A DNA stretch of 64,000 nt, taken from positions 6,793,501 to 6,857,500 of the forward strand of contig NZ_CP112880.1 of assembly GCF_028747205.1 (NCBI RefSeq). The letters are read 5' to 3'. This DNA comes from Streptomyces sp. CA-278952 (GTDB taxonomy: Bacteria > Actinomycetota > Actinomycetes > Streptomycetales > Streptomycetaceae). Below, piece after piece: positions 1 to 8,718 of the stretch. Each line of letters begins with the position of its first letter. Positions within the stretch are counted from its first letter, which is position 1. The position numbers and the translations under genes are program-made. A model generated the notes under the pieces. The model was not told the DNA's origin, made no database searches, and was given only the letters and a program-made list of their open reading frames with translations.

Positions 1-1220
1 GGGACGCCCACGAGGTGACGCTGTACGAGGCGGACGACCGCGTCGGAGGCCACGCCCACACGCATGACCTGACCGCGTCCGACGGCCGGGTGCACCGCGT
101 CGACTCCGGGTTCATCGTGCACAACCGCCGGACCTACCCCCACCTGCTGCGGCTCTTCGACGAACTGGGCGTCGCCACCCAGGAGTCCGAGATGTCGATG
201 TCCGTACGGTGCGAGGGGTGCGGCCTCGAATACGCCGGGGCGCGCGGACCGGCCGGGCTGCTCGCACAGCCGCGCTCCGCCGTGCGCGGCCCTTATCTGC
301 GGATGCTCGCCGAGGTGCCGCGCTTCCACCGCGCGGCCCGGGCCCTCCTGGAACTGCCGGACAGTGGGACGGGCGCGACGGGTGGGGCGAGCGGGATGAC
401 GCTGGGGGAGTTCGCCCGGCGCGGGCGCTTCTCGCCCTACTTCCACGCCCACTTCCTCACGCCCATGGTCTCCGCCGTCTGGTCCTGCGACCCGGTCACC
501 GCCCTGCGCTACCCGGCCCGCTATCTCTTCCGCTTCCTCGCCCACCACGGCATGCTCACCCTCGGTGACTCCCCGGTCTGGCGCACCGTCACCGGCGGGT
601 CGCGCGGTTACGTCGACCTCCTCGTCAAGCAGCTCACCGCCGTGCACACCTCGACCCCGGTACGCGCGATCACCCGGCACGCGGACGGCGTCGACGTCAC
701 CACCGAGGACGGCACGAGAACCCCGTACGACTCCGTCGTCATCGCCACCCACCCCGACCAGGCGCTGCGGCTGCTCATCGACCCGACCGACGCCGAGCGC
801 GGCACGCTCGGCGCGTTCCGGTACTCCCGCAACCCGACCCTGCTGCACACGGACACCACGCTGCTGCCGCGCGCCCGGCGGGCCAGGGCCTCCTGGAACT
901 ACCTGATGCCCTCGTGCGCCGCCGACGCCGACCACGTCACCGTCAGCTACGACATGAGCCGGCTCCAGCGGCTCGACGCGCCCGAGACCTTCGTGGTCAC
1001 GCTGAACGGCTCCGACCGCGTCGACCCCGCCTCCGTACGCGCCCGCATGGTCTACGAGCACCCCGTCTACACACCCGAGTCCGTCGATGCCCAGGCCGGG
1101 CTGCCCGCCCTCTCCGGTCCCGTCACCGCCTACGCGGGGGCGTACCACGGCTGGGGGTTCCACGAGGACGGCTGCCGTTCGGGGGTCGAGGCCGCGGCGG
1201 CCCTGGGGGTGAGGTGGTGA
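1..1220 (+). CDS. NAD(P)/FAD-dependent oxidoreductase (amine-oxidase-like), 5' truncated
   Basis: The reading frame is already open at the window edge (codons from base 3) and begins inside the Rossmann FAD fold: the residues EVTLYEADDRVGGHA are the second beta strand, the acidic ribose-binding position and the GG turn of the amine oxidase/protoporphyrinogen oxidase superfamily, so the GxGxxG strand lies upstream of the window. About 405 residues remain. It ends in GTGA overlap with the DUF1365 gene and is the first visible gene of a five-gene coupled operon. Relatives with the same neighbours (Rv0449c in M. tuberculosis; the RpoE-ChrR regulon of Rhodobacter) act on membrane fatty acids, probably as desaturase-like or oxidative enzymes; that role is inferred from context. 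The substrate cannot be read from sequence. Confidence 0.85.
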   Translation, partial: DAHEVTLYEADDRVGGHAHTHDLTASDGRVHRVDSGFIVHNRRTYPHLLRLFDELGVATQESEMSMSVRCEGCGLEYAGARGPAGLLAQPRSAVRGPYLRMLAEVPRFHRAARALLELPDSGTGATGGASGMTLGEFARRGRFSPYFHAHFLTPMVSAVWSCDPVTALRYPARYLFRFLAHHGMLTLGDSPVWRTVTGGSRGYVDLLVKQLTAVHTSTPVRAITRHADGVDVTTEDGTRTPYDSVVIATHPDQALRLLIDPTDAERGTLGAFRYSRNPTLLHTDTTLLPRARRARASWNYLMPSCAADADHVTVSYDMSRLQRLDAPETFVVTLNGSDRVDPASVRARMVYEHPVYTPESVDAQAGLPALSGPVTAYAGAYHGWGFHEDGCRSGVEAAAALGVRW

Positions 1221-1939
1221 ACGCCCTCTATCCGTGCACCATCACGCACGTACGGAACCGGCCGACGAGATACGCGTTCCGGCACCGTACGTACCTGTGG
1301 CTCATCGACCCCGACCGGCCGCCCCGGCTGCCACGCCTCCTGCGGCCGCTGGCCCGGTTCGACCCCCGCGACCACTTCGGCGGCACCGCCCCCACCATCC
1401 GGGCCGGCCTGGAGGGCTTCCTGCGGGCCCGGGGCGTCGAACTCGGCGACGGCACCGTCACCATGCTCACCCAGGCCCGGGTGTTCGGACACGTCTTCAA
1501 CCCGATCACCGTCTACTGGTGCCACCGCGCCGACGGGGGCCCCCTCTGCGTCGTCGCCGAGGTGCACAACACCTACGGCGGACGGCACGGCTACCTCCTG
1601 CGCCCCGACAGGAACGACCGGGCCGTGGCCGACAAGGAGTTCTACGTCTCGCCGTTCTTCCCCGTGGACGGCGGCTACCGGATGCGGCTGCCCGAGCCCG
1701 GGCCACGGCTCGACCTGAGCATCCACCTGGAGCGCGACGGGGCCCGCCCGTTCACCGCCACCGTCCGGGGCGACCGGCGGCCCGCCGGCCCCCGGGAGCT
1801 GGTGCGGCTCGCCCTGCGCCACCCCCTCTCCACCGTCCTCGTCTCCGCCGCGATCCGCCTGCACGGCATCCGGCTCTACCTGCGCGGCCTCCCCGTGCAA
1901 CCCCGTCCCCCGCACCGCCCACAGGAAGGCATGCAGTGA
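1217..1939 (+). CDS. DUF1365 family protein
   Basis: This 240-residue protein is a full-length DUF1365 member: it opens with LYPCTITHVRNRPTRYAF, then carries FGHVFNPITVYWCH, EVHNTYGGRHGYLL and DKEFYVSPFFPVDGGY, which are the conserved blocks of the family. The start is taken at the GTG that overlaps the upstream TGA by four bases; a GTG one codon earlier is also possible. DUF1365 genes almost always sit between an FAD oxidoreductase and a CFA-type methyltransferase, as here. The biochemical role is not established in general; involvement in modification of unsaturated or methylated fatty acyl chains is inferred from gene neighbourhood. Confidence 0.88.
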   Translation: MNALYPCTITHVRNRPTRYAFRHRTYLWLIDPDRPPRLPRLLRPLARFDPRDHFGGTAPTIRAGLEGFLRARGVELGDGTVTMLTQARVFGHVFNPITVYWCHRADGGPLCVVAEVHNTYGGRHGYLLRPDRNDRAVADKEFYVSPFFPVDGGYRMRLPEPGPRLDLSIHLERDGARPFTATVRGDRRPAGPRELVRLALRHPLSTVLVSAAIRLHGIRLYLRGLPVQPRPPHRPQEGMQ

Positions 1940-3201
1940 CCGCGCCCACCTCCGCGCCGCCGGCAGAGCACACCCCCGGGACCGACCCGCAACGCTGGCC
2001 CGACATCATCGAGCAGCCCCGAGCCTCCCGCGCCCGGACCGCCGTCGCCGAGCGCATCGTCCGCCGCGCCCTCGGCCGGCTCCCCCTGCGCGCCCGGCTC
2101 GCGGGCGGGGACGACATAGGCCTCGGCGGGCCGCTCATGGACATCCGCGACCCCGACGCCTTCTTCCGGCGGATCGGCGCGAGCGGACTCATCGGCTTCG
2201 GCGAGTCCTACATGGCGGGGGAGTGGGACGCGCCCGACCTGGTCGGCGTGCTGACCGTGCTGGCCGACAACGTGGCCGGCCTCGTCCCCCGGCCGCTGCA
2301 ACGCCTGCGCGGTGTCTGGGCGCTGCGCAGGCCCGCCGCTCAGCTGAACACCCCCGAAGGCTCCCGGGACAACATCAGCCACCACTACGACCTGTCCAAC
2401 GAGCTGTTCGCCCTCTTCCTCGACGAGACGCTCTCCTACTCCTCCGCCGTCTTCCGCGGCTTCCCCGCCGAACACGACCTGCTGCCCGCCGCCCAGCACC
2501 GCAAGATCGACCGGCTGCTGGACGCCGCCGGGGTCACCGAGGGCACCCGCCTCCTGGAGATCGGCACCGGCTGGGGCGAGCTGGCCGTCCGCGCGGCCGC
2601 CCGCGGCGCCCGGGTCGTCACCGTCACCCTCTCCGCCGAGCAGCGCGAACTGGCCCGCGCCCGGATCCGCGAGGCCGGGTACGCGGACCGCGTCGAGGTG
2701 CGGCTGAGCGACTACCGCCACGTCACCGGCGACTACGACGCCATCGTCAGCGTCGAGATGGTCGAGGCGGTCGGCGAGGAGTTCTGGCCGGTCTACTTCG
2801 AGACCCTGGACCGGCTGCTCGCCCCCGGCGGCCGGATCGCCCTCCAGGCCATCACCATGCCCGACGACCGGCTGCGCGCCAGCCGCTCCACGTACACCTG
2901 GATCCACAAGTACATCTTCCCCGGCGGGCTCCTGCCCTCCACCGAGGCCGTGGAGCGGATCACCACCGGCCACACCCGCCTGCGCACCACGCAGCGCATC
3001 CGCTTCGGCGCGCACTACGCCGAGACGCTCCGGCTCTGGCGGGAGAGGTTCACCGAGCGGGCGGCCGAGGTCGACGCCCTCGGCTTCGACGCCGTCTTCC
3101 GCCGGATGTGGACCTTCTACCTCGCCTACTCCGAAGCGGGCTTCCGCTCCGGCTACCTCGATGTGCAGCAGCTGCTTCTGACCCGCGAGGAGACCGCGTG
3201 A
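1936..3201 (+). CDS. SAM-dependent fatty-acid methyltransferase, CFA synthase family (UfaA1-like)
   Basis: 421 residues; GTG start in GTGA overlap with the preceding gene and an AGGAAGG ribosome site. The acyl-binding block NISHHYDLSNELF is at about 146-158 and SAM motif I LLEIGTGWGE at about 206-215. Where true cyclopropane synthases have YSC, with the Cys that holds the active-site bicarbonate, this protein has YSS (Ser170), and the usual EHVG is EAVG at 277-280. Its neighbour encoded downstream keeps both canonical residues. The protein is therefore more likely a methyltransferase of the UfaA1/furan-fatty-acid type, methylating a double bond without ring closure, than a cyclopropane synthase. 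That functional distinction is inference from residues and synteny. Confidence 0.85.
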   Translation: MTAPTSAPPAEHTPGTDPQRWPDIIEQPRASRARTAVAERIVRRALGRLPLRARLAGGDDIGLGGPLMDIRDPDAFFRRIGASGLIGFGESYMAGEWDAPDLVGVLTVLADNVAGLVPRPLQRLRGVWALRRPAAQLNTPEGSRDNISHHYDLSNELFALFLDETLSYSSAVFRGFPAEHDLLPAAQHRKIDRLLDAAGVTEGTRLLEIGTGWGELAVRAAARGARVVTVTLSAEQRELARARIREAGYADRVEVRLSDYRHVTGDYDAIVSVEMVEAVGEEFWPVYFETLDRLLAPGGRIALQAITMPDDRLRASRSTYTWIHKYIFPGGLLPSTEAVERITTGHTRLRTTQRIRFGAHYAETLRLWRERFTERAAEVDALGFDAVFRRMWTFYLAYSEAGFRSGYLDVQQLLLTREETA

Positions 3202-4550
3202 CCACGACCGCACCCAAGCCCTCCGCCCGGCGCACCCCGACCGGGGCCGCCCAGCGCGTCGAACCGCTGATCGAGCGGTTCCTCGGCGGCCCGCCGCCGG
3301 TCCGGGTGCGGATGTGGGACGGCAGCGAGACCGGGCCCACGGACGCCCCCACCGTCCATGTGCGGACCCGCAGAGCGCTGCGCCGCCTGCTGTGGCAGCC
3401 GGGCGAACTCGGCCTCGCCGAGGCTTACATCACCGGCGACATCGACCTCGACACCGATCTCGGCGACGGGCTGCGCGCCATGCGCCGCGCCGCGCGCGAC
3501 CGCGGCCTCACCCCGCCCGCGCCCGCCCTCGCCGACCGGCTCAGGGCGGCGGGCCTCGCCCTGCGCCTCGGCGCGGTCGGCCCCCGGCCGCCGGTCCCCG
3601 CCGCCCGCGCCGGACTGAGCGGGACCCTGCACAGCAAGGCCCGGGACCGGGCGGCGATCAGCCACCACTACGACCTGTCCAACGCCTTCTACACGCTGCT
3701 CCTCGACGAGACGATGGCGTACTCCTGCGGCTACTGGACCAGCGACGCACCCGACTACGGCCCGGCCGACGCACAGCGCGACAAGCTGGAGCTGATCTGC
3801 CGCAAGCTCGGACTGCGGCCCGGCGCACGGCTGCTGGACATCGGCTGCGGCTGGGGTTCGCTGACCCTGTACGCGGCCGAGCGCCACGGTGTCCGCGTCA
3901 CCGCCGTCACCCTCGCCGCCGAGCAGGCCGCGTACGTACGGGAGCAGGTCACCGCACGCGGCCTCGACGATCGCGTCGAGGTGCTGAACATCGACTACCG
4001 GGACATCGCGGGGCGGCCGGAGACCCGGGGCGCGTACGACGCCGTGTCCACCATCGAGATGGGCGAGCACGTCGGGGACGCCGAGTACCCCGCGTTCACC
4101 GCGATCCTGCACGACGCGCTGCGGCCGAAGGGCCGGGCCCTGGTCCAGCAGATGTCCCGGGGGACGACCGCGCCGGGCGGCGGCGCGTTCATCGAGTCGT
4201 ACATCGCCCCCGACATGCACATGCGGCCGCTCGGCGAGACCGTCGCCCTGCTGGAGGGCGCCGGGCTCGAGGTGCGTGACGTCGAATCGCTGCGCGAGCA
4301 CTACGTGTGGACGGTGGAGGCCTGGCGGCGCACCCTGGAGGAGCGCTGGGCCCAGTTCGTCGCGCTGGTGGGGGAGGAGACCGCGCGGGTGTGGCGGCTC
4401 TACCTCGTCGGCGGCGCGCTCGCGTTCGAGGAACGCCGGATGGGCGTCGACCAGATCCTCTCCGTACGGCCCGACCCGGTCGGCTCCGCGGCGATGCCCG
4501 CCACCCGGCGCGACTGGTACGCGCCGGGCGCCCCGGAGGTGAGCCCGTGA
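3198..4550 (+). CDS. Cyclopropane-fatty-acyl-phospholipid synthase family protein
   Basis: 450 residues, GTG start overlapping the previous stop (GTGA). The N-terminal third contains the lipid-handling domain (LRRLLWQPGELGLAEAYITG near 61-80), followed by AISHHYDLSNAFY at about 153-165, the bicarbonate Cys in YSCGYW at 175-180, SAM motif I LLDIGCGWGSL from 212, and TIEMGEHVG. All landmarks of catalytically complete CFA synthases are present, so it should transfer a methylene group from SAM to unsaturated phospholipid acyl chains. It is the second of two CFA-type genes in the same operon; the first lacks the Cys and His, which suggests division of labour rather than simple duplication. Confidence 0.88.
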   Translation: MTTTAPKPSARRTPTGAAQRVEPLIERFLGGPPPVRVRMWDGSETGPTDAPTVHVRTRRALRRLLWQPGELGLAEAYITGDIDLDTDLGDGLRAMRRAARDRGLTPPAPALADRLRAAGLALRLGAVGPRPPVPAARAGLSGTLHSKARDRAAISHHYDLSNAFYTLLLDETMAYSCGYWTSDAPDYGPADAQRDKLELICRKLGLRPGARLLDIGCGWGSLTLYAAERHGVRVTAVTLAAEQAAYVREQVTARGLDDRVEVLNIDYRDIAGRPETRGAYDAVSTIEMGEHVGDAEYPAFTAILHDALRPKGRALVQQMSRGTTAPGGGAFIESYIAPDMHMRPLGETVALLEGAGLEVRDVESLREHYVWTVEAWRRTLEERWAQFVALVGEETARVWRLYLVGGALAFEERRMGVDQILSVRPDPVGSAAMPATRRDWYAPGAPEVSP

Positions 4551-5350
4551 GCGGCTTCGTCTGGTCCGCGTTCGCGAGCGGGCTCGCGGGCGCGGCCGTC
4601 GCCGCGCTCGGCGTCATGCTCGTCACCTTCGCCGTCGCCGTGAAGAAGGGCGTGCACCGGATCGTCGACGTCGCCTGGGGCATCGGGTTCGCCGCCGTCG
4701 CCCTGGTCTCCTACGGCCTGTCGGCGGGCGACGGCGACGACGGCCGCCGGCTCCTGGTCACCGCGCTGACCGTGATCTGGGGGCTGCGCCTCGCCCTCCA
4801 CATCGGCCGGCGCGGAAGGGGCCACGGGGAGGACCCGCGTTACGCGAAGATGCTGGCCAAGGCCCCCGGCAACCCGAACCTGTACGCCCTGCGCAAGGTG
4901 TATCTCCTCCAGGGGGCGCTGGTCTGGCTGGTCTCGCTCCCGGTGCAGGCCGCGCAGTACCTCACCGCGCCGCTCGCCTGGTGGGCCTGGGCGGGGGCGC
5001 TCCTGTGGGCGGTCGGCCTCGCCTTCGAGGCGATCGGCGACGCGCAGCTCGCCCGGTTCAAGGCCGACCCCGCCAACAAGGGGAAGATCATGGACCGGGG
5101 GCTCTGGTCCTGGACCCGCCATCCGAACTACTTCGGCGACTTCTGCGTCTGGTGGGGCCTCTTCCTCTTCGTCTGCCAGGCCCCCGCCGCCGCTGCCGCC
5201 ACCGTCGTCGCCCCGCTGGTGATGAGCTTCCTGCTGACCAAGGGCAGCGGCGCGGCCCTGCTGGAGCGCCATATGGCCGACCGCCCCGGATTCGACGCGT
5301 ACGTGGCGCGGACGAGCGGCTTCTTCCCCCGGCCGCCGCGCCGGGTCTGA
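4547..5350 (+). CDS. DUF1295 family integral membrane protein
   Basis: 267 residues, GTG start overlapping the upstream TGA. It has about six hydrophobic segments, beginning with AALGVMLVTFAVAVKKG, and the C-terminal signature GLWSWTRHPNYFGDFCVWWG that DUF1295 proteins share with steroid 5-alpha-reductases and isoprenylcysteine methyltransferases (RHPNY motif). It is the last gene of the operon and is followed by a strong bidirectional terminator. The same family sits beside ufaA1 and sigK in mycobacteria (Rv0446c). A reductase or methyltransferase-like activity on a lipid substrate inside the membrane is plausible but unproven. Confidence 0.88.
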   Translation: MSGFVWSAFASGLAGAAVAALGVMLVTFAVAVKKGVHRIVDVAWGIGFAAVALVSYGLSAGDGDDGRRLLVTALTVIWGLRLALHIGRRGRGHGEDPRYAKMLAKAPGNPNLYALRKVYLLQGALVWLVSLPVQAAQYLTAPLAWWAWAGALLWAVGLAFEAIGDAQLARFKADPANKGKIMDRGLWSWTRHPNYFGDFCVWWGLFLFVCQAPAAAAATVVAPLVMSFLLTKGSGAALLERHMADRPGFDAYVARTSGFFPRPPRRV

Positions 5351-5353
5351 CAG

Positions 5354-5397
5354 GCGAAGAGGCCCGTACCGCGTCTCCGCGGGACGGGCCTCTTCGC
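5354..5397. terminator. Bidirectional terminator between convergent operons
   Basis: A perfect 14-bp inverted repeat (GCGAAGAGGCCCGT at 5354-5367 and its complement at 5384-5397) lies four bases after the DUF1295 stop and 19 bases before the photolyase stop. It can serve both converging transcripts. Confidence 0.85.
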
Positions 5398-5415
5398 GTC
5401 GGGGCCGTCGTCCGG

Positions 5416-6783
5416 TCAGTCCAGGCCGCGGGCGCGTTCGAAGCGGGCGCGGGCCTCGGCCAGGTCCACCACCGGGTCCGGGTAGTCCAGACCAGCCCGG
5501 TCCAGGCCCTGGAGCTTCCAGGGTTCGTGGATCGCGGCCCCCTCCAGCTGCGCCAGCTCCGGCACCCAGCGCCGTACGTAGGCACCGCGCGGATCGAAGC
5601 GCTTGCCCTGGATCACCGGGTTGAGCACCCGGTTGGGCCGGGTGTCCGTGCCGGTGCCCGCCACCCACTGCCAGTTGAGCTGGTTGTTCGCCAGGTCGCC
5701 GTCGACCAGCAGGTCCAGGAAGTGCCGGGCGCCCACCCGCCAGTCCACGTACAGCGTCTTGGTGAGGAAGCTCGCGGCCAGCATCCGGCCCCGGTTGTGC
5801 ATCCAGCCCTCGTGCGCGAGCTGCCGCATCGCCGCGTCCACCAGCGGATAGCCCGTACGCCCGGACTTCCAGGCGTCGATCTCGTCCTCGTCGGAGCGCC
5901 AGCGGTCCTGGCGCGGCCGGTAGTCGGACCAAGAGGCGTCCGGCCGGTCCGCGAGGACCTGGTGGTGGAAGTCGCGCCAGGCCAGTTGCCGCACGAACGC
6001 CTCGCCGCCGGGCCCGCCCTTCTCCCGGGCACGGTGGACCAGCTCGGCGGCGGAGACCGTACCGAAGTGCAGATGCGGGGAGAGCCGGGACGTCGCGTCG
6101 CCGGCCAGGTCGTCGTGGCCGTCCTCGTAGTCGGCCATCGGCCCGTTCAGCCAGGTCGTCACCAGCTTGCGGCCCGCCTCCTCGCCGCCCCGGGCGAGGC
6201 GGGGGGAGATGTTCTCCACGCTGTCCCGGTCCGGGAGCGGGTCGCTCGCCACGCCGTCCGGCACCCGCACCGTGCGGGGAGCGGTCAGTGTGCCCCGTAC
6301 TCCCTCCGCCTCCCAACGGCGGAAGTACGGGGTGAACACCGCGAAGTGGCCCTTGCCGCCCGTCGGGACCACCCGGCCCGGAGCGAGCGCGGTGACCACC
6401 GCGTCATGGACGCGCAGCTCGCCGCCGGTGCCCGCGAGGGCCTCCCGGATCCGTTGCTCGCGCCGCGTCGCGTACCGGCTGACGCCGGCGGCGACGTGCA
6501 CGGAGGCCGCCCCGGTCTCCTCGGTCACCCGCCTTACCGCCTCGGCCACCTCGCCCCGGCGGACGACCAGTCGGCCGCCCCGGTGCCGGAGTCCGGCGTC
6601 CAGGGCGGTCAGGCAGTCGGCGAGGAAGGCCAGCCGGTTGGGCGCGTCGAATCCGGCGCGGTGGACGGCGTCGTCCCGGACGAACAACGGGACGACCTCG
6701 TCCGCGTCCCGCAGGGCGGCACGCAGCACCGGGTTGTCGTGCAGCCGCAGATCGGAGGTGAACAGCACCACCGCGACACTCAT
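5416..6783 (-). CDS. phr: Deoxyribodipyrimidine photolyase (cryptochrome/photolyase family)
   Basis: 455 residues. The N-terminal photolyase antenna domain (VVLFTSDLRLHDNPVL) is followed by the FAD/DNA-binding alpha-helical domain with SRLSPHLHFG, QLAWRDFHH, EGWMHNRGRM, LTKTLYVDWR and NQLNWQWVAGTGTD, all hallmark blocks of class I CPD photolyases. It should repair UV-induced cyclobutane dimers using blue light. An upstream in-frame ATG at 6804 exists, but the ATG at 6783 has a better placed GGGAG site and begins directly at the SVAVVLF strand. The gene follows the sigma/anti-sigma pair with 50 bases between, so it probably belongs to their transcript and regulon, as photolyase genes do in other light or singlet-oxygen responses. 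Confidence 0.93.
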   Translation of the reverse strand: MSVAVVLFTSDLRLHDNPVLRAALRDADEVVPLFVRDDAVHRAGFDAPNRLAFLADCLTALDAGLRHRGGRLVVRRGEVAEAVRRVTEETGAASVHVAAGVSRYATRREQRIREALAGTGGELRVHDAVVTALAPGRVVPTGGKGHFAVFTPYFRRWEAEGVRGTLTAPRTVRVPDGVASDPLPDRDSVENISPRLARGGEEAGRKLVTTWLNGPMADYEDGHDDLAGDATSRLSPHLHFGTVSAAELVHRAREKGGPGGEAFVRQLAWRDFHHQVLADRPDASWSDYRPRQDRWRSDEDEIDAWKSGRTGYPLVDAAMRQLAHEGWMHNRGRMLAASFLTKTLYVDWRVGARHFLDLLVDGDLANNQLNWQWVAGTGTDTRPNRVLNPVIQGKRFDPRGAYVRRWVPELAQLEGAAIHEPWKLQGLDRAGLDYPDPVVDLAEARARFERARGLD

Positions 6784-6833
6784 GGAACGGACGCTCCCTT
6801 GCATGGTTCGTGGGTGAGTGGGCAGGTGAGCGG

Positions 6834-7586
6834 TCAGGCGGTCGGGAAGTCCATCAGCGCCACCGGGGACGAGGTCGGTTCGTCGGAGCCTCCGGCGGGT
6901 TCGACCGTGATGCCCATCCCGGACGCCCGGTCCACCGGCCCGTCCAGCAGGACCGCGTCGTCGCTCGCCTTCGGGTCCATCAGACCGGCCGAACGCATCG
7001 TGCCCTCGTCGTTGAACCAGAGCTGGTAGACCTTGCCGCTCGGCGGTCGGTCCATCCCCGAGGCCAGGAACACCGCACGGTTCTGGCTCTGCGAGACGAC
7101 GACGGTTCCGCGCGCGCTGCCGGTCAGCTCACTCGACGTGCTCTTCGCGTCCGGGGCCGAGAGCACCTGGGCCAGCTGCTCGTTCTGCTGCTGCGCCTGG
7201 TTCGCCTCCTGCCGCGCGTCCTGCGCCACCTGGTTCTGCCAGACCGCGACCCCGCCGAACGCGGCTGCCGCGGCGACGCAGGCGGCGAGCGCGTAGGCGT
7301 ACCACCGGCCGGTGCCTCCGCCCCCGCCGGTCCGTGCCCGTCTGCCGTGCGCCGGAGCCTCCTGGCGTACGGTCGTGATCTCCCGCAGCACCCTCTGGCG
7401 CAGCTCGCGCGGCGGGGTCTCGGCGACGGCGAGGCCGAGCCGGGCGGCGGTGGCCGACAGTTCCCGCACCTCCTGGGTGCAGGCCTCGCAGTCCTCCAGG
7501 TGCCGCTCGAACGCCTGCCGTTCGGAGTCCGGCAGCGCGTGCAGGGCATAGGCACCGGTCAGCGTGTGCAGTTCGGCCGTGCTCAT
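6834..7586 (-). CDS. rskA: Anti-sigma-K factor RskA-type, zinc-finger membrane protein
   Basis: 250 residues. The N-terminus holds an anti-sigma zinc-binding motif (H-x3-C-x2-C in ERHLEDCEACTQEV, residues about 28-41), then a variable segment, a single transmembrane helix (WYAYALAACVAAAAAFGGVAVW), a coiled QNQV/QQQNEQ stretch, and a C-terminal RskA-like extracytoplasmic domain ending in GSDEPTSSPVALMDFPTA. It should bind and silence the sigma factor encoded immediately upstream, with which it overlaps by an ATGA, and release it by regulated proteolysis or redox change; the signal is not visible. The topology and neighbour match RskA of mycobacteria. Confidence 0.9.
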   Translation of the reverse strand: MSTAELHTLTGAYALHALPDSERQAFERHLEDCEACTQEVRELSATAARLGLAVAETPPRELRQRVLREITTVRQEAPAHGRRARTGGGGGTGRWYAYALAACVAAAAAFGGVAVWQNQVAQDARQEANQAQQQNEQLAQVLSAPDAKSTSSELTGSARGTVVVSQSQNRAVFLASGMDRPPSGKVYQLWFNDEGTMRSAGLMDPKASDDAVLLDGPVDRASGMGITVEPAGGSDEPTSSPVALMDFPTA

Positions 7587-8167
7587 GCGCTCACCCCCAG
7601 GCAGTCGCGCAGGCGGATGAGGCCGTCGCGGAGTCGTGTCTTGATGGTGCCCAGCGGCACGGCGAGCAGCTCGGAGACCTCACGGTAGGTCAGGCCCCGG
7701 TAGTAGGCCAGGGTCACCGACTCCCGTTGCAGCTCGGACAGGGTGCGCATACAACGCCGTACCTGTTCTCTCTCCAGCCGGGTCTCGACCTGTTCGGACA
7801 CCTCGTCGAAGGCGGGCGTCCGGTCCAGCAGCGCCGCCTTGTGCTCCCGGGCGGCAGCGGCCTCGGCCGAGCGGACCCGGTCGACGGCCCGGTGGTGGGC
7901 CACCGTCAGCACCCAGTTCATCGCGCTGCCCCGGGAGGCCCGGAAACGGGGCGCGGTGCGCCACACCTCCACCAGCACCTCCTGCGCCACCTCCTCCGAC
8001 TGGGCCGGATCGCGGAGCACGCTGCGCACCAGACCGAGCACGGGCCCGCTCACCGCGTCGTACACCGCGGCGAACGCGTCCTGGTCGCCCCGCGCGACCC
8101 GCACCAGGAGTTCCTGGAGGTCGGGGCCGGGCGAGGGCACCCCACTGATGTGTACGGCTTCCTTCAC
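7583..8167 (-). CDS. sigK: ECF RNA polymerase sigma factor, SigK-like
   Basis: 194 residues with region 2 (YDAVSGPVLGLVRSVLRDPAQSEEVAQEV and the -10-binding WRTAPRF / ARAM-type NWVLTVAHHRAVDRVR helix) and region 4 (LSELQRESVTLAYYRGLTYREVSELL and the helix GTIKTRLRDGL). The frame stays open upstream to 8434, but the GTG at 8167 has an excellent GGAGG eight bases before it and matches the family length. It is coupled to the anti-sigma gene by ATGA. Mycobacterial SigK controls its neighbouring ufaA1 operon, so the five lipid genes on the opposite side of the photolyase are the obvious candidate targets. Confidence 0.9.
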   Translation of the reverse strand: MKEAVHISGVPSPGPDLQELLVRVARGDQDAFAAVYDAVSGPVLGLVRSVLRDPAQSEEVAQEVLVEVWRTAPRFRASRGSAMNWVLTVAHHRAVDRVRSAEAAAAREHKAALLDRTPAFDEVSEQVETRLEREQVRRCMRTLSELQRESVTLAYYRGLTYREVSELLAVPLGTIKTRLRDGLIRLRDCLGVSA

Positions 8168-8280
8168 GCGGGTTTCCTCCCGGGACGATCGTCGCTTCCG
8201 GCAGTGATTCGGAGCCGACGACCGTACGGATTGGTCGGACGCCCGCGATCTTCGCAGACCGGGCCCCGGGAGGACGCGAC

Positions 8281-8718
8281 TCAGCCGGTGAGCGTTTCGC
8301 GCCGTCGCAGGCGGACGGCGCGGACGGCGAGGAATATCACCAGCCCGAACGGCGACAGCAGGATCGTCAGGACCAGCAGCGGCCCCATCAGCAGCGGCGA
8401 CAGCCCCAGCTTCCGGCTCTGGAGGTACATCCACTGCCCGAGCAGCAGGTCCCAGGCGATCACCTGCGCCCAGATGGCCCCCGCGCCGCCGGCCAGCGCC
8501 GTCAGATCACGGAACGCGTCGAGGTCCGGGCTGCTCACCGCCGCCCAGAGCTCCGGGAACACCGGCACGGCCATGACGACGTAGACGGCGAGCACGGGCA
8601 GCACGGTCAGCGGCGAGGCGATGACGCGGGCGGTACCGGACCAGGTGGGGGCGAAGATCATCAGCAGCCAGAACGGGGCGGCCAGATAGAACGTGATCTC
8701 GAACAGTGCGCCGGTCAT
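8281..8718 (-). CDS. ABA4-like (DUF4281) membrane protein
   Basis: 145 residues with four hydrophobic helices and the DUF4281 signature: FYLAAPFWLLMIFAPTW near the start, then AQVIAWDLLLGQWMYLQSR, then SPLLMGPLLVLTILLSPFGLVIFL. The plant member ABA4 is required for neoxanthin formation from violaxanthin; bacterial members have no settled function. The start ATG overlaps the stop of the upstream membrane gene (ATGA), so the two are translated together. A pigment or photoprotection role would fit the nearby photolyase and sigma factor but is inference. Confidence 0.82.
   Translation of the reverse strand: MTGALFEITFYLAAPFWLLMIFAPTWSGTARVIASPLTVLPVLAVYVVMAVPVFPELWAAVSSPDLDAFRDLTALAGGAGAIWAQVIAWDLLLGQWMYLQSRKLGLSPLLMGPLLVLTILLSPFGLVIFLAVRAVRLRRRETLTG

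Follow-up and report, generated by a model that had tools for sequence, protein, structure and literature searches.

The window analysed here is a 64,000-base stretch of the Streptomyces sp. CA-278952 genome (bases 6793501-6857500 of C1, an 8.21 Mb single contig), at the start of which five genes for predicted lipid-modifying enzymes converge on a shorter unit encoding the extracytoplasmic function (ECF) sigma factor SigK, its anti-sigma factor RskA and a DNA photolyase (Table 1). The lipid operon specifies a flavin-dependent (FAD) oxidoreductase, referred to below as the flavoprotein, a DUF1365 protein, two methyltransferases resembling cyclopropane fatty acid (CFA) synthase, here MT1 and MT2, and a DUF1295 membrane protein. 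An earlier note, made from the letters of this stretch, had drawn attention to the order of these eight genes; all are present where it placed them, and profile matches confirm their families. The gene diverging from the operon, which lies outside the stretch available to that note, encodes a fasciclin.

All four junctions within the lipid operon are 4-base overlaps, and the operon is therefore probably a single transcription unit. The photolyase gene, 50 bases after rskA and on the same strand, is by its position probably cotranscribed with sigK and rskA. Between the convergent units, bases 5340-5420 fold with an energy of -54.4 kcal/mol (z -4.98, RNA fold); a consensus scan called no T-tailed terminator between them, and a scan of the operon junction for sigma-70 promoters and terminators produced no match. 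A gene for an ABA4-like membrane protein lies upstream of sigK, as it does near 10 of 55 loci of the same genus, and probably stands outside the sigK operon because a SigK-type promoter sits between the two genes.

Table 1. Genes and regulatory features at the SigK-lipid locus (window positions unless prefixed C1).
Feature	Position	Strand	Evidence
FAD amine-oxidase-like oxidoreductase, UfaD counterpart	73 bases before base 1 to 1220	+	PF01593 85 bits; 430 aa
DUF1365 protein, UfaO counterpart	1217-1939	+	PF07103 227 bits
CFA-like methyltransferase MT1, UfaM counterpart	1936-3201	+	PF02353 (CMAS) 281 bits
CFA-like methyltransferase MT2, Cfa-derived	3198-4550	+	CMAS 249 bits
DUF1295 membrane protein, last operon gene	4547-5350	+	PF06966 244 bits
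Hairpin separating convergent units, likely two-way terminator	about 5354-5397	.	RNA fold
DNA photolyase (FAD_binding_7, DNA_photolyase), third gene after sigK-rskA	5416-6783	-	PF03441, PF00875
Anti-sigma factor RskA	6834-7586	-	PF10099 113.6 bits
ECF sigma factor SigK	7583-8167	-	NCBIfam NF007228 293.9 bits, cut-off 226
SigK-type promoter GACCAATCC-N16-CGAA of sigK-rskA-photolyase	8208-8236	-	
ABA4-like membrane protein	8281-8718	-	PF14108
SigK-type promoter of five-gene operon	C1:6793335-6793363 (138-166 bases before base 1)	+	
SigK-type promoter of divergent fasciclin gene	C1:6793266-6793294	-	
Secreted-type fasciclin gene, upstream of operon, divergent	C1:6792476-6793123		PF02469

The earlier note had staked its proposal on a sigma motif common to the two operons and had expected the lipid operon's promoter to lie ahead of base 1. 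Such a promoter was found there, and the same conserved 13-base site, with the same spacing, precedes sigK. In all, GACCAATCC-N16-CGAA (the gap first read by eye) occurs three times at the locus, before the fasciclin gene, the operon and sigK. With spacers of 13-17 allowed, the full motif has six matches in the entire genome, all of them N16, against none for a reversed-pattern control. Beyond the locus, copies precede a second fasciclin gene and a membrane molybdopterin oxidoreductase (PF00174) encoded 5.6 Mb away, so placed that two of the three fasciclin genes of the genome follow a SigK-type site; at the third (C1:663771), a looser pattern was unmatched in the fetched locus. A looser core, CCAATCC-N16-CGAA, has two further exact sites genome-wide, one of which precedes a secreted-type protein whose CHRD match falls under the curated cut-off. 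When two mismatches were allowed, only the sigK site was recovered in the window, where 1.07 would be expected by chance; a loose motif is therefore meaningless alone, and weight falls on exact copies, spacing and conservation. The promoter of the proteobacterial regulator RpoE (TGATC-N18-CGTA, PMC5241685), sought as TGATC-N17-19-CGTA, had no occurrence in 17 kb of the locus.

Conservation was gauged in 150 genomes of the same genus, of which 53, including that of the window, encode a DUF1365 protein at E 1e-20. All 55 loci of these 53 genomes were fetched; as they were picked by DUF1365 and belong to one genus, they are related, and the counts that follow are not independent trials. The flavoprotein is present in 55 loci, a first CMAS gene in 53, DUF1295 in 50, SigK in 38, MT2 in 32 and a photolyase in 19, a recurrence of the operon families that shows the arrangement not to be due to chance. 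The two loci without MT1 (L185 and L198) are short fetched pieces. In 18 other loci, flavoprotein, DUF1365 and MT1 occur together in 16.

Promoter sites were scored in these loci with spacers of 14-18, no more than one mismatch being tolerated within the 11 core bases. By this measure the operon is preceded by a site in 46 of 55 loci (17 of 1100 letter shuffles) and sigK in 34 of the 36 that have enough flank among the 38 with SigK (6 of 720 shuffles), each site being N16. This first count gave ties to spacer 16, and the motif scan that included loci outside the genus charged other spacers half a mismatch; a recount listing every match with spacers of 12-20, free of any spacer preference, assigned N16 to 46 of 53 matches before the flavoprotein gene and 34 of 35 before sigK, leaving seven and one for other spacers. 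Among the nine operons lacking a site, two (L178, L184) have a same-strand fasciclin gene directly upstream, four (L080, L194, L195, L196) carry a two-mismatch variant with spacer 17 beside a divergent photolyase gene, and L079, L193 and L198 make up the remainder; the two sigK misses, L171 and L182, have two mismatches each. The full motif was found in 99 of the 150 genomes, with zero for the control in every row, and at least three sites are present in 15 of 53 genomes with DUF1365 as against two of 97 without it.

The genes served by the site are not fixed in position. A homologue of the molybdopterin oxidoreductase (60-76% identity) lies at the locus itself in 25 of 55 cases; downstream of the divergent promoter come this gene and then the fasciclin gene in L043 and L068, and the oxidoreductase gene in L072, where no fasciclin gene was seen. 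That targets move with their promoter speaks for a regulon over chance neighbours. Photolyase genes also vary in position: of the 19 found, eight lie between DUF1295 and rskA, four beyond sigK, four divergent from the flavoprotein gene, two upstream of that gene and codirectional with it, and one divergent from sigK, which suggests repeated association with the locus.

Beyond the genus the module appears under more than one regulator. A Tsukamurella plasmid (L140) bears the order flavoprotein, DUF1365, methyltransferase, lipocalin, SigK and anti-sigma factor, with sigK as fifth gene, and on an Azospirillum plasmid ChrR, the anti-sigma factor of RpoE, and its sigma gene diverge from the flavoprotein, DUF1365 and CFA genes; the same module can thus stand under either regulator. 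Five loci (L046, L047, L049, L052 and L140) have sigK codirectional with DUF1365 and no such site directly before sigK. In L052 and Tsukamurella, CACCCATCC- or CCCCCATCC-N16-CGAAT lies upstream of the first gene, and at L049 no convincing site precedes it. These findings bear on the proposal that the motif is conserved as the site of some other sigma factor and that the regulator is not SigK. The motif does occur in 56 of 97 genomes without DUF1365, and the match of SigK to it is a prediction from sequence. Nevertheless, the site precedes sigK itself in nearly every locus that could be scored, a related site stands before the first gene of the Tsukamurella operon that includes sigK, and SigK sites are described as highly conserved in Actinobacteria, SigK orthologues reading the mpt70 promoter (PMC7509140, in excerpt, as are all PMC-numbered sources here except PMC5241685). 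Control by another sigma factor is therefore extremely unlikely, and a promoter-defined SigK regulon is predicted with high confidence.

The best solved relative of the sigma factor is SigK of structure 4nqw, with whose cysteines C139 and C189 align. RskA carries the zinc-finger-like pattern HxxxCxxC (HLEDCEAC, at residue 29) and the RskA C-terminal domain PF10099; no match named ChrR was obtained at E 0.001, the anti-sigma factor carrying RskA domains instead. RskA is a membrane anti-sigma factor. In one same-genus locus, L064, a second SigK-like match with 88% identity lies beside sigK.

For the enzymes, reference proteins were taken from five Rhodopseudomonas genomes, reached by way of an antenna peptide, in which the CMAS and DUF1365 genes were then located; gene numbers of strain CGA009 were assigned by neighbourhood and similarity. 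Each of the five has one CMAS gene adjoining DUF1365 (the UfaM position, RPA2569-2571 in CGA009) and a divergent short CMAS that we take as FufM-like, and four have a third, RPA3082-like CMAS gene; RPA0924 was previously placed at 26% to UfaM (Lemke 2020). Compared with UfaD of the R. palustris group, the window flavoprotein is 37.5% identical over 429 aa, with 37 invariant columns over 43 rows of the alignment, and the DUF1365 protein matches UfaO at 36% over 251 aa, with nine invariant columns over 46 rows. For the latter, a sequence search up to E 1 gave no solved relative, and single-sequence structure prediction gave a mean pLDDT (predicted local distance difference test) of only 35.6. 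MT1 matches UfaM at 41% (263 bits), the RPA3082-like proteins at 38-39% (182 bits) and Escherichia coli Cfa at 34%. In a tree of 75 rows, the MT1 proteins group with UfaM and an Azospirillum homologue in a single clade (support 100/97), outside which lie Cfa, the FufM-like proteins and MT2; the tree is midpoint-rooted, has some long branches and UfaM rows of unusual composition, and takes its loci from the first fetch, the later-fetched loci of the genus being left out. The likeness to a Rhodobacter regulon that the earlier note had claimed is thus valid enzyme by enzyme, in the identities, the tree and the regulatory targets discussed below.

MT2 has a different ancestry. It forms a separate clade (100/97) beside another Cfa-like protein of the same genome (94/85), to which it is 47% identical over 434 aa. 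We considered whether MT2 might be FufM by orthology and ruled this out, as it groups with the Cfa-like protein and not with the FufM-like proteins. Its presence in 32 of 55 loci, a count drawn from those bearing DUF1365, marks it as an optional step.

Both methyltransferases depart from Cfa at a single catalytic position. In the E. coli cyclopropane synthase, Glu239, His266 and Tyr317 hold the catalytic bicarbonate (PMC11387697). Position 266 is Gln in 74 of 74 MT1/UfaM rows and in 32 of 32 MT2 rows (two of which lie beyond the genus); the remaining 10 CMAS rows, among them E. coli Cfa and the FufM-like and RPA3082-like proteins, all have His. E239 and Y317 are kept, giving the signatures S-E-Q-I-Y in MT1 and C-E-Q-M-Y in MT2; x-E-Q-I-Y is common to all 74 MT1/UfaM rows. 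Because MT1 and MT2 fall in different clades, the change from His266 to Gln seems to have occurred twice. UfaM is reported to make a methyl product rather than a ring (PMC7380195), and from this activity and Gln266 we infer that MT1 and MT2 would also yield methyl products, not rings.

This residue is the reason for rejecting ordinary cyclopropane synthesis by MT1 and MT2, and with it the proposal that they supply cyclopropane lipids under general envelope stress is very unlikely. Membership of both in the CMAS family and the kinship of MT2 to the Cfa-like protein speak for that proposal, and an E. coli strain expressing a Halomonas UfaM contained the methyl acid along with cyclic acids, the host having its own Cfa (PMC12089945). 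Against it stand the uniform loss of the bicarbonate ligand in both groups, the clustering of MT1 with UfaM, and the Cfa-like gene elsewhere in the genome, whose signature, C-E-H-I-Y, is intact.

Only slightly less improbable is the production of 10-methyl-branched acids of the tuberculostearic type, as proposed for mycobacterial UfaA1, in which MT1 and MT2 would methylenate oleoyl chains and the flavoprotein would reduce the product. A CFA-like methyltransferase paired with a flavoprotein does resemble BfaB/BfaA, and according to a study in yeast, earlier reports credited ufaA1 with 10-methylstearate (PMC7791843). However, the same source describes methylases of the BfaAB route as chosen for conserved Cfa bicarbonate sites and as distinct from ufaA1, and its operons for that route have two genes and no DUF1365. 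Here His266 is lost in MT1 and MT2, so that the bicarbonate site is not conserved, and the flavoprotein belongs to the amine-oxidase family and matches UfaD. A furan fatty acid is the product that we consider probable for the operon, judged by its orthologous enzymes. Two families of fatty acid desaturase are represented in the genome by five genes, some or all of which may act on fatty acids, and an unsaturated substrate is thus plausible.

Taken as a whole, the locus is probably a SigK-RskA regulon that counters photo-oxidative stress of the envelope by making methylated furan fatty acids. RskA would tether SigK to the membrane, an oxidative signal would free it, and SigK would then transcribe sigK-rskA-photolyase, the five-gene lipid operon, the secreted fasciclin gene and unlinked genes from GACCAATCC-N16-CGAA. 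MT1, acting as UfaM, would methylate a cis-unsaturated phospholipid chain with a shift of its double bond; the flavoprotein, as UfaD, would introduce another double bond; and the DUF1365 protein, as UfaO, would insert oxygen derived from O2 and close the furan ring, yielding a chain that could scavenge singlet oxygen in the membrane. MT2 would probably add a second methyl group or work on another chain, although its assignment as a second furan-lipid methylase is tentative, and the DUF1295 protein may carry out an auxiliary step at the membrane, of a reductase-like or desaturase-like kind.

The RpoE-ChrR (ECF11) singlet-oxygen regulon of Rhodobacter sphaeroides has the same targets, namely ufaM (RSP2144), ufaD (RSP1091), ufaO (RSP1090), the photolyase gene phrA, the fasciclin gene RSP1409 and the sigma/anti-sigma pair (PMC7074977), whereas here the regulators are SigK and RskA, not ChrR, and the promoter is of the SigK type. 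The UfaM-UfaD-UfaO pathway of R. sphaeroides and R. palustris employs orthologous enzymes, their genes being adjacent here as in the R. palustris group; the present version differs in being actinobacterial, in the addition of MT2 and DUF1295 to the operon and in having no FufM orthologue at the locus. Singlet-oxygen genes of Chlamydomonas that depend on SAK1 overlap in CFA1, CFA2, DUF1365, DUF1295 and the fasciclin FAS2, and also include a methionine sulfoxide reductase (PMC4067076 Table 5); they belong to a eukaryote with another regulator, and a furan product is not stated in the excerpt.

The mycobacterial SigK-RskA regulon (Rv0449c-Rv0444c, mpt70, mpt83, dipZ) shares the SigK and RskA families, fasciclin targets and autoregulation with the present locus. 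Among fasciclin proteins are the mycobacterial SigK targets MPT70 and MPT83. The two loci differ in that here sigK-rskA face the lipid operon from a promoter of their own, rskA is followed by a photolyase gene, and MT2 is extra. Autoregulation of M. tuberculosis sigK is said to proceed via Rv0449cp (PMC7509140).

The signal that SigK-RskA answers is described as obscure (PMC9861118). The match of the gene set to the R. sphaeroides singlet-oxygen regulon, together with its overlap with the Chlamydomonas genes, points to light-generated reactive oxygen, and we give singlet oxygen or light about an even chance of being the trigger. In M. kansasii, light raises the fasciclins mpk83 6-fold and mpk70 3-fold, both with putative SigK sites (PMC9861118), and in Nesterenkonia ultraviolet light lowers RskA (PMC8965627). 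In R. capsulatus, a pair induced by singlet oxygen and called RpoE-ChrR is nearer to SigK-RskA than to the R. sphaeroides RpoE-ChrR (PMC7074977). It is also possible, though rather unlikely, that the regulon is real and furan lipids are made in response to disulfide, reductive, peroxide or envelope stress rather than to light or singlet oxygen. Conservation of both SigK cysteines, which have been linked to redox sensitivity (PMC7509140), the membrane location of RskA as an anti-sigma factor and the patchy linkage of photolyase would suit such a signal; the resemblance to the two singlet-oxygen gene sets and the several different arrangements in which photolyase has joined the locus argue the other way.

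Several observations weigh against a SigK regulon for photo-oxidative stress that makes furan lipids. One of the six full-motif sites (C1:7305344) and one of the two extra core sites (C1:119855) have no convincing target, and the core with one mismatch, found at 61 sites against 33 in the control, is enriched about twofold and is not specific. The full motif is missing from 10 of 53 genomes carrying the module, and 97 of the 150 had no DUF1365 match at E 1e-20; as at least one site occurs in 43 of the 53 and also in 56 of the 97, the regulon defined by the motif extends beyond the lipid module. Photolyase lies near a minority of the loci, and light is therefore not a constant partner. Two loci of another family (L046, L047) have DUF1365 and sigK-rskA but neither the flavoprotein nor the methyltransferase genes, a state suggestive of pathway decay. 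R. capsulatus is reported to have no homologue of ufaD, ufaO or fasciclin (PMC7074977), so a SigK-like pair can serve singlet-oxygen stress without the furan pathway. In M. kansasii, dipZ has its own putative SigK site yet did not respond to light, and neither sigK nor its lipid operon figures among the 14 light-induced genes in the table of the excerpt (PMC9861118). For the organism studied here, the entire mechanism is a prediction from sequence.

A broader synthesis can be offered tentatively. SigK-RskA may be the actinobacterial singlet-oxygen response, such that one effector set (furan-lipid enzymes, photolyase and fasciclin) has been wired to two sigma/anti-sigma systems; the furan lipid or its oxidation product might then feed back on RskA as on ChrR, and MT2, having lost the bicarbonate His independently, might make a furan lipid that is dimethylated or novel in some other way. 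Turnover of ChrR under singlet oxygen in R. sphaeroides requires the furan-lipid genes (PMC6852236).

Each of the parts has been published: the regulons of SigK and of RpoE-ChrR, and the enzymes for furan fatty acids. The evolution of the SigK regulon is reportedly the subject of Veyrier 2008, which may describe part of the gene order. The earlier note had spoken of an undescribed Streptomyces pathway; a single sigma factor does appear to govern a set of methylating and oxidising enzymes, but their chemistry corresponds to the published UfaM-UfaD-UfaO route. The novelty lies in joining the SigK regulon to that route, in MT2 and in a testable SigK signal, and no link between the actinobacterial SigK lipid operon and furan fatty acids was found in the open-access literature, as available in excerpt. 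A 12-carbon furan fatty acid has been isolated from Agrococcus, whose authors found no UfaO-like enzyme according to the excerpt (PMC9323897). If the proposed product is correct, a genus that is a major source of antibiotics would gain furan fatty acids among its lipids. Mumiamicin is reportedly a furan fatty acid from Mumia. At this locus SigK is tied to a pathway known to yield a quencher of singlet oxygen, so that the SigK signal, and likewise what the lipid operon does, can be tested in a harmless Streptomyces. SigK-RskA controls known mycobacterial antigens, and light-generated reactive oxygen becomes a candidate trigger of this switch; MT2, whose active site has diverged from that of its Cfa ancestor, is a candidate new fatty-acid methylase.

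Some further observations were made in passing. Among plasmids, the best match to the flavoprotein is from Streptomyces, at 73%. The S. clavuligerus plasmid pSCL4 (L141) carries a distant homologue with AMP-binding, methyltransferase and acyl-ACP (acyl carrier protein) desaturase genes, a different fatty acid cluster. The spacer of the full-motif site at C1:7305344-7305372 holds a palindrome, TTCCGTAACGGAA; this match is found again, identical or almost so, in several genomes of the genus and is possibly the site of another regulator. In L004, a membrane molybdopterin oxidoreductase gene (2-1492, minus strand) has a SigK-type site 8 bases ahead of its likely start; its transcript is possibly leaderless, and its product is perhaps a sulfoxide-repair enzyme. 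Finally, at an actinobacterial locus from another genus (L054, region 9957), a FufM-like methyltransferase gene lies beside those for flavoprotein, DUF1365 and MT1; its product groups with the FufM-like proteins at 100/100 and has the signature C-E-H-F-Y, which makes this locus a candidate maker of dimethyl furan fatty acids.

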